Assembly: GCA_002069965.1 (NCBI GenBank)
Contig: MWCI01000005.1
Coordinates: 1-64,000 of the forward strand
DNA length: 64,000 nt
DNA from: Spirochaetes bacterium ADurb.Bin218
Lineage (GTDB): Bacteria; Spirochaetota; UBA4802; UBA5550
Direction: 5' to 3'
Shown: piece by piece, positions 58,129 through 58,927 of the stretch
How the letters are laid out: the number at the start of each line of letters is the position of its first letter
How positions within the stretch are numbered: the first letter of the stretch is position 1
Notes under the pieces: model-generated
Databases searched by the model: none
Told to the model about the DNA's origin: nothing
Seen by the model: the letters and a program-made list of their open reading frames with translations, nothing else
Program-made: the position numbers and the translations under genes

Positions 58129-58180
58129 AATTGAAGCCTTTGCAAATTTTAGTTTTAATAGCTACATAGTCTATAAATAA

Positions 58181-58211
58181 AAAAGCTGCAATATTTTACT
58201 ATTACAGCTTT
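58181..58211 (-). terminator. Intrinsic terminator after tRNA-Val
   Basis: On the minus strand AAAGCTG...AATA pairs with TATT...CAGCTTT, and TTTTATTT follows directly. It ends the rpsT-HU-tRNA-Val unit. In the plus direction the stem could help end the small membrane protein transcript. Confidence 0.7.
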
Positions 58212-58214
58212 CTG

Positions 58215-58287
58215 TGGGCGCTAGAGGGATCGAACCTCTGACCCTCTGCTTGTAAGGCAGATGCTCTCCCAGCTGAGCTAAGCGCCC
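58215..58287 (-). tRNA. tRNA-Val (anticodon TAC)
   Basis: Cloverleaf on the minus strand: acceptor GGGCGCT / AGCGCCC, D arm with AGCTCAGCTGGGAGAGC, anticodon stem CTGC...GCAG with loop CTTACAA (TAC), T arm with GGTTCGATCCC, discriminator A. CCA is not encoded. Its first 10 nt (58287-58278) lie inside the HU gene end: the HU stop TAG is within the tRNA acceptor/D junction. Confidence 0.97.
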
Positions 58288-58556
58288 TCTATTTCTTTTT
58301 TTGTTGTTTTGCTTGGTCGAAAGTTAATCTTTTCTTTGGCCGGAACTTCTATTTCTTGCCCTGCAATAGGAGATTTTATTTTTCTCTTACCCTGTCGCAG
58401 TTTTGAAAAAGTACCGAATCCTCTTATCTCAACTTCTTTGCCATTCTGGACTTCTTCGAGTATCTTGTCAATAAATAAATTTATTATTATCTCAACTTTT
58501 TTTTTTGAAAATCCAGTGCTAATGCTTATCTCTTCAATCAACTGTGTTTTATTCAA
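58278..58556 (-). CDS. HU/IHF-type DNA-binding protein
   Basis: 92 residues from TTG 58556, which restores the usual NKTQLIEEISISTG start and has GAGG 6 nt upstream inside the rpsT stop. An upstream TTG (58568) also keeps the frame. Core: FSKKKVEIIINLFIDKILEEVQNGKEVEIRGFGTFSKLRQGKRKIKSPIAGQEIEVPAKEKINFRPSK, with the DNA-binding arm including the proline in IKSPIAGQ. A histone-like dimer that bends DNA. The last three codons and stop overlap the tRNA-Val gene on the same strand. Confidence 0.93.
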   Translation of the reverse strand: MNKTQLIEEISISTGFSKKKVEIIINLFIDKILEEVQNGKEVEIRGFGTFSKLRQGKRKIKSPIAGQEIEVPAKEKINFRPSKTTKKEIEGA

Positions 58557-58564
58557 ACAAGGCC

Positions 58565-58852
58565 TCAAGCTGATTTAGTTACAGATACCGCTGCATTAAC
58601 CTTTTTAGCTAATCTTGATTTTTTTCTTGCAGCTGTCTCTTTTTTAACAATACCTTTTCTTGCAGCTGTATCTATAGTTTTAACAAAATTTTTGAAGTAT
58701 TCCAATATTGTTGAGCTATCTTTTTCTTTAGATTCAAGAGCCTTTAGAACTTTTTTATTAGCTGTTCTAATGGATGACTTTACACGGGAATTTCTTTCCC
58801 TGTTGCGCTCATTTTGCAAATTTCGTTTTTTCTGTTGCTTTATATTAGCCAA
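58565..58852 (-). CDS. rpsT: 30S ribosomal protein S20
   Basis: 95 residues from TTG 58852 (MANIKQQKKRNLQNERNRERN...), with GAAGG upstream. The 5' extension to 58927 runs through the promoter and begins with the -35 box, so it is not coding. S20 features: KSSIRTANKKVLKALESKEK and the basic C-terminal half KGIVKKETAARKKSRLAKKV. The TTG start resembles the UUG start of E. coli rpsT. Its stop overlaps the HU start region. First gene of rpsT-HU-tRNA-Val. Confidence 0.95.
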   Translation of the reverse strand: MANIKQQKKRNLQNERNRERNSRVKSSIRTANKKVLKALESKEKDSSTILEYFKNFVKTIDTAARKGIVKKETAARKKSRLAKKVNAAVSVTKSA

Positions 58853-58898: not shown

Positions 58899-58927
58899 TA
58901 TATGTTTAAATATGGAAAAACTGTCAA
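58899..58927 (-). promoter_or_regulatory. rpsT promoter
   Basis: TTGACA (58927-58922, minus strand), 17-bp spacer, CATATA (58904-58899). Transcription would start near 58892, giving a leader of about 40 nt before TTG 58852. The -35 box TTGACA reads as an in-frame TTG codon. Confidence 0.65.

Follow-up and report, generated by a model that had tools for sequence, protein, structure and literature searches.

The window analysed here, a stretch of DNA of 64,000 nucleotides, holds on its minus strand a compact array formed by the ribosomal protein gene rpsT, a gene of the HU/IHF family and the gene for tRNA-Val(UAC), with a probable promoter at one end and a hairpin resembling an intrinsic terminator at the other (Table 1). 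At the junction of the last two genes, which reads ...GAA ATA GAG GGC GCT TAG CTCAG..., position 58287 is a G shared by a Glu codon (GAG), as its third base, and by the tRNA, as its nucleotide 1, and the HU stop codon TAG (58280-58278) corresponds to U8-A9-G10 of tRNA-Val(UAC) on the same strand. The original prediction had described this overlap of ten nucleotides, as well as a terminator behind the tRNA, and both were recovered, the former with exact coordinates and the latter as a terminator-like hairpin. The CCA end of the tRNA is not encoded, nucleotide 73 being located at 58215 (the end at 58214 is the bound given by ARAGORN). In the predicted fold of the RNA, the acceptor stem and the terminator hairpin are both formed, and the 23 nt found 5′ of the tRNA are A-rich and unpaired. 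The tRNA-Val(UAC) gene is the sole full-length match of at least 84% identity in its genome, where the two Val loci with a gac anticodon show 77% identity to it.

The protein encoded by the second gene matches PF00216 (Bac_DNA_binding) with 80.7 bits, against a cut-off of 22.4, over positions 1-89 of the 90 of the profile, which places it in this family, and solved HU and IHF relatives were found for it. None of the HU or IHF equivalog cut-offs of NCBIfam was reached (the best one was IHF alpha, with 55.4 bits against a cut-off of 111), and the gene is therefore labelled as HU/IHF-family only, or HU for short. Its start is more likely to be TTG 58556, which gives 92 aa, than TTG 58568, an alternative that overlaps the rpsT stop. 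Within positions 58556-58570, the TGA that ends rpsT shares bases with a TTG and with a GAGG, the latter of which can act as a Shine-Dalgarno sequence for TTG 58556, an arrangement suggesting that translation of rpsT and HU may be coupled.

Table 1. Features of the rpsT-HU-tRNA-Val locus in the window
Feature	Positions	Strand	Remarks
Probable operon promoter upstream of rpsT	58899..58927	(-)	TTGACA (58927-58922), 17 nt, CATATA (58904-58899)
rpsT (ribosomal protein S20)	58565..58852	(-)	Start TTG 58852-58850; PF01649 E 1.9e-23; TIGR00029 E 1.2e-22
HU/IHF-family gene, 92 aa	58278..58556	(-)	Likely start TTG 58556; PF00216 E 9.4e-23; order-wide conserved locus
10-nt HU/tRNA overlap	58278..58287	(-)	Last base of GAG (Glu), then GGC (Gly), GCT (Ala) and TAG; nucleotides 1-10 of tRNA-Val
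tRNA-Val, anticodon UAC	58214..58287	(-)	ARAGORN; RF00005 70.4 bits
Intrinsic-terminator-like hairpin	58180..58213	(-)	Directly 3′ of tRNA-Val; similar ones in relatives

Conservation of the junction in the order

All 46 genomes of the order were searched, and each place with HU (threshold, E up to 1e-9) or tRNA-Val was taken. The arrangement rpsT-(HU)-tRNA-Val(UAC) was recovered in 39 of them, with HU followed by the tRNA in 36 genomes, and the linkage is present in all seven families of the order. HU has been lost in G024, G033 and G017, where the tRNA lies 13, 92 and 21 nt behind rpsT, respectively. The seven other genomes (G001, G010, G011, G015, G026, G035 and G044) yielded neither HU at E up to 1e-9 nor a strong full-length match to tRNA-Val; six of these assemblies are 72-85% complete, and G026 is 96% complete and also gave no rpsT match.

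Among the 36 HU loci, the distance from the HU stop to the tRNA is -10 nt in 17 (the locus of the window included), -1 in one, 0 in four, 1 in one, 2 in one, 3 in five, 4 in four, 5 in two and 6 in one. In other words, in 18 of the 36 loci HU ends 0-6 nt short of the tRNA, with a spacer that never exceeds 6 nt, and in the single -1 case (G036) the stop straddles the first base of the tRNA, such that an RNase P cut inside the UAG would leave UA. One genome, G042, is interrupted by N letters 20 nt into the tRNA and was classed by the visible tRNA start. At this locus (L028), the N run is found from about position 1775 onward and a second near-complete copy of tRNA-Val lies beyond it (C30:5253-5320), which is probably a scaffolding artefact.

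Conservation in relatives, a check that the original prediction had called for, could be confirmed: the same ten nucleotides overlap in the congener G002 and in 15 further genomes of the order, which rules out a sequencing or assembly error that moved the stop. By family, the 10-nt overlap was found in 10 of 15 loci of f1, 1 of 1 of f2, 3 of 3 of f3, 1 of 3 of f4, 1 of 7 of f5, 0 of 1 of f6 and 1 of 6 of f7, and a single genus (g4) comprises three loci with the overlap, two without it and one from which HU is absent. These 17 overlaps do not amount to 17 independent events: on a tree of S20 and HU (181 columns, weak deep branches), parsimony places the overlap at the midpoint root and demands at least nine state changes in all, a number as low being obtained in 23 of 500 label shuffles.

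The way in which HU enters the tRNA is also uniform. No overlap deeper than the UAG at positions 8-10 was found among the 36 HU loci, nor any readthrough in either of the two frames lacking a UAG, and the fact that all 17 overlaps use the UAG 8-10 frame, with none reading on, rules out a chance frame as the full account. A TAG at positions 8-10 is present in 14 of the 34 distinct tRNAs scanned in the genome of the window. Because tRNA-Val offers a UAG in a single frame, overlaps are recurrent and always of 10 nt (barring the -1 case of G036), and the loss of the HU stop in that frame would therefore cost only a few residues.

The same observations bear on pure compaction, that is, on genes abutting by happenstance while nothing acts on the junction. 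Other genes of this genome also end close to a tRNA, since the gene for a CRP/FNR-like regulator stops 6 nt before tRNA-Arg(CCT) (L062, 1581-2258 (-)) and an ORF of 199 aa, which sits between tRNA-Ser and tRNA-Arg genes and is without an NCBIfam match, stops 7 nt before tRNA-Arg(ACG) (L049, 893-1492 (+)). However, happenstance does not readily account for a linkage shared by all the families of the order, for rpsT-tRNA-Val pairs in further families of the phylum, for spacers as short as those of the 36 HU loci or for the lack of readthrough in the two frames without UAG, and compaction as the whole explanation seems rather unlikely.

Signals for transcription

No promoter had been seen in the original prediction, which is correct for a space between the genes that does not exist, but not for the inside of HU, where two promoter-like matches are found on the right strand, TTGACA-17-CAGAAT (58471-58443) and TTTTCA-17-AATAAT (58511-58483). 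A site such as the first one, which matches at 10 of 12 positions, could be a promoter of the tRNA itself, in which case most of the tRNA would never be part of an HU molecule and the overlap would be nothing but packing. Strong matches in three f3 loci (8.2-8.8 bits for the best one in the 50 nt before the tRNA) would fit with this possibility, as would a mean z of 0.29 (se 0.18), which is not significant, for -10 elements located 130-170 nt before the tRNA. However, no sigma70-like excess over synonymous-codon shuffles was detected in any of four windows tried on 35 HU loci, either in the 50 nt that adjoin the tRNA on its 5′ side (mean z -0.05, se 0.17) or in the three flat ones further upstream in HU (z 0.03, 0.13 and the 0.29 just given, se about 0.16-0.18). 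Moreover, the match at 58471-58443 belongs to a set of 18 such sites counted in 2 kb of AT-rich sequence, for which 8.6 are expected, and the tRNA persists 13 and 21 nt behind rpsT in genomes where HU, with any promoter inside, is gone. An internal promoter as the main source of the tRNA is thus regarded as unlikely.

Upstream of rpsT, the motif TTGAC is present in 38 of the 39 loci of the order, often as TTGACA-17-CATATT or CATAGT, and promoter scores exceed those of base shuffles by a mean z of 0.95 (se 0.18); the match of the window itself does not stand out in the same kind of scan (z -0.92). As a yardstick, the 34 tRNAs of the genome of the window, tRNA-Val(UAC) included, have a mean z of 0.59. 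The values for HU and rpsT are comparable only roughly, because the two nulls, synonymous-codon shuffles in one case and base shuffles in the other, differ in kind. At the other end of the array, 21 of 38 loci of the order have a terminator-like hairpin behind the tRNA, where shuffling predicts 0.3, and none was found by the rule used in the other 17.

The locus has the features of an mRNA-tRNA operon, in that its genes lie on one strand, leave no space for a promoter between them, share a terminator and are kept in a conserved order. A common transcript for HU and the tRNA, which the original prediction had put forward as a condition, is probable and well supported by this conserved order, by the lack of a promoter excess inside HU, by the TTGAC upstream of rpsT and by the tRNA being kept where HU is lost. 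Thus, rpsT, HU and tRNA-Val(UAC) would form a single transcription unit, starting at a promoter upstream of rpsT and ending at the hairpin behind the tRNA. If there is no internal promoter, the supply of tRNA-Val(UAC) hangs on this unit, because the genome contains no second full-length similar gene, and the linkage probably puts an essential tRNA on a ribosomal-protein promoter.

The locus outside the order

From a sample of 159 genomes of the phylum, 76 rpsT loci holding S20 were taken outside the order (four stretches without S20 were left out), 16 of them chosen for close tRNA-rpsT coordinates or a strong tRNA match and 60 covering other genera. A tRNA-Val follows rpsT in 26 of these 76 loci, a count that includes the 16 preselected for adjacency and 10 of the 60 of the genus sample, which rules out a feature of the order only. 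In the genus sample, the next gene after rpsT is HU in 42 loci, tRNA-Val(UAC) in 10, tRNA-Pro in one and neither in seven (one of these stretches ends early), and HU and tRNA-Val never occur together behind rpsT in this sample. In the preselected set, tRNA-Val(UAC) comes next in 16 of 16, with HU in between in one of them (L124, G049). The 10-nt overlap recurs in two of the 26 tRNA-Val loci, with HU in L124 and with rpsT itself in L122 (G089), and the remaining 24 show gaps of 1 to 128 nt. At another locus (L154, G092), tRNA-Pro(TGG) lies 5 nt behind rpsT, in place of HU or tRNA-Val.

The rpsT-hbb pair of Borrelia and the rpsT-hup pair of Treponema consist of rpsT and then HU. This type is the one found in the 42 sampled loci with HU, the Borrelia-like G113 included, none of which has a tRNA next, unlike the locus of the window. 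The HU protein of G113 matches the solved protein Hbb, that of Borrelia, with an E of 1.1e-61, and on this ground the phylum sampled is taken to be Spirochaetota. A word search restricted to open-licence papers found none on the rpsT-hbb pair of Borrelia.

Proposed processing of the transcript

The genes for RNase P RNA, tmRNA and SmpB are all present in the genome of the window. A canonical RNase P cut before nucleotide 1 of the tRNA puts the HU stop 3′ of the cut, and the claim that tRNA maturation would deprive the HU message of its stop agrees well with the position of this codon at tRNA nucleotides 8-10 and with the RNase P RNA gene. From the anatomy of the locus, its conservation, its alternative states and the enzyme genes at hand, we infer that RNase P would make both the 5′ end of the tRNA and the 3′ end of the rpsT-HU message. 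For HU, U8-A9-G10 of the tRNA would be a ready-made stop codon; in the species of the window, RNase P would also take this stop, leaving a message that ends in ...AUA GA, and in relatives whose stop precedes the tRNA by 0-6 nt, the cut message would retain it. With a ribosome terminating on the HU UAG, the 5′ half of the tRNA would be occupied and its folding delayed, which would make translation and tRNA folding mutually exclusive at any given time on one molecule. Any ribosome still translating the cut nonstop message would reach its end and depend on tmRNA/SmpB for rescue. Finally, the hairpin touching the 3′ end of the tRNA may delay RNase P.

Such a pathway could have been shaped as a programmed switch, in which RNase P deliberately makes a nonstop HU message and either tRNA maturation or the growth state sets HU output through trans-translation. 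The message end ...AUA GA-3′, without a stop, the tmRNA and SmpB genes, the overlap as the parsimony root state and its recurrence outside the order are all compatible with a switch, for which arfA offers a precedent of an endonuclease-made nonstop mRNA (PMC10107115). However, the whole stop would be lost in only 17 of the 36 HU loci, the tree demands at least nine state changes, with as few in 23 of the 500 shuffles, the genus g4 is mixed, and the overlap also occurs with a gene for a ribosomal protein, the rpsT of L122. The idea of the original prediction that processing decides between message and tRNA is weakened by the 18 HU loci that keep the stop upstream and by the minimum of nine changes. 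A required switch is unlikely because the stop is found outside the tRNA in half of the relatives, adjacency being what is kept, and a programmed one appears very doubtful.

We consider it likely, on the basis of these comparisons of sequences, that the three genes form one unit in which RNase P forms the 3′ end of the HU message, the linkage being under selection and the loss of the stop a recurrent by-product. Stop removal, predicted in about half of the species and evolutionarily labile, would probably be tolerated rather than required as a switch. It is improbable that the system goes as far as a bacterial tRNA punctuation, in which tRNA maturation would define the rpsT-HU 3′ end across the order, with the UAG at 8-10 as stop, a choice for each transcript between completing HU and freeing an essential tRNA, and trans-translation clearing the losers; if true, a nucleoid protein and a ribosomal protein would be tied to tRNA supply.

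Comparison with known systems

The anatomy of the locus is firm and unusual, and its nearest relatives in principle are mRNA-tRNA operons, the tRNA punctuation of mitochondria and arfA. In mRNA-tRNA operons such as secG-leuU of E. coli, a tRNA gene and a terminator likewise come after a protein gene, and the products are parted by RNA processing. The coding region is not known to enter the tRNA in operons of this type, whereas the present ones, HU or rpsT, extend as far as nucleotide 10 of the tRNA. To judge from the title of Mohanty and Kushner 2008, a hairpin at the tRNA 3′ end of secG leuU reportedly delays RNase P.

In mitochondria, too, the upstream mRNA acquires its 3′ end through excision of a tRNA, and stops can be left incomplete by the cut, as would be the case in G036. 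Incomplete mitochondrial stops are completed by polyadenylation. In contrast, the present locus belongs to a bacterial chromosome with a gene for a ribozyme-type RNase P RNA, and its cleavage would take away the last 10 nt of the coding sequence together with the stop, which a poly(A) tail is unable to rebuild.

In the case of arfA of E. coli, an endonuclease removes the stop and trans-translation acts on the resulting nonstop mRNA (PMC10107115). There the enzyme is RNase III, which cuts at a hairpin in a regulatory process shown by experiment (PMC10107115), whereas at the locus of the window it would be RNase P at a tRNA, as a prediction. The two systems share a stop located 3′ of the endonuclease cut, in our case at the canonical RNase P site in the sequence, but the nonstop design is not conserved here, as 17 of the 36 HU loci would lose the whole stop, one its last base, and 18 keep it.

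Word searches in open-licence papers found no report of a bacterial coding sequence ending inside a tRNA. The locus offers an example of one stretch of RNA that serves as the translated end of a message and as a folded tRNA, widely kept and repeatedly re-evolved. If one transcript yields both products, RNase P would be an mRNA 3′-end-forming enzyme in bacteria, and the natural variation among relatives in whether the tRNA contains the stop would provide a ready comparison of the competition among ribosome, RNase P and trans-translation. Annotation pipelines that disallow overlaps between coding sequences and tRNAs would trim or miss such genes.

A last observation concerns the region behind tRNA-Val, where an element formed by CTACCGG, a few bases and ACCGGCG lies 44-75 nt away in 6 of 38 loci (L007, L008, L009, L023, L084 and L085). 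These six loci gave no Rfam match except the tRNA, and the element is perhaps a mobile-element or attachment site.
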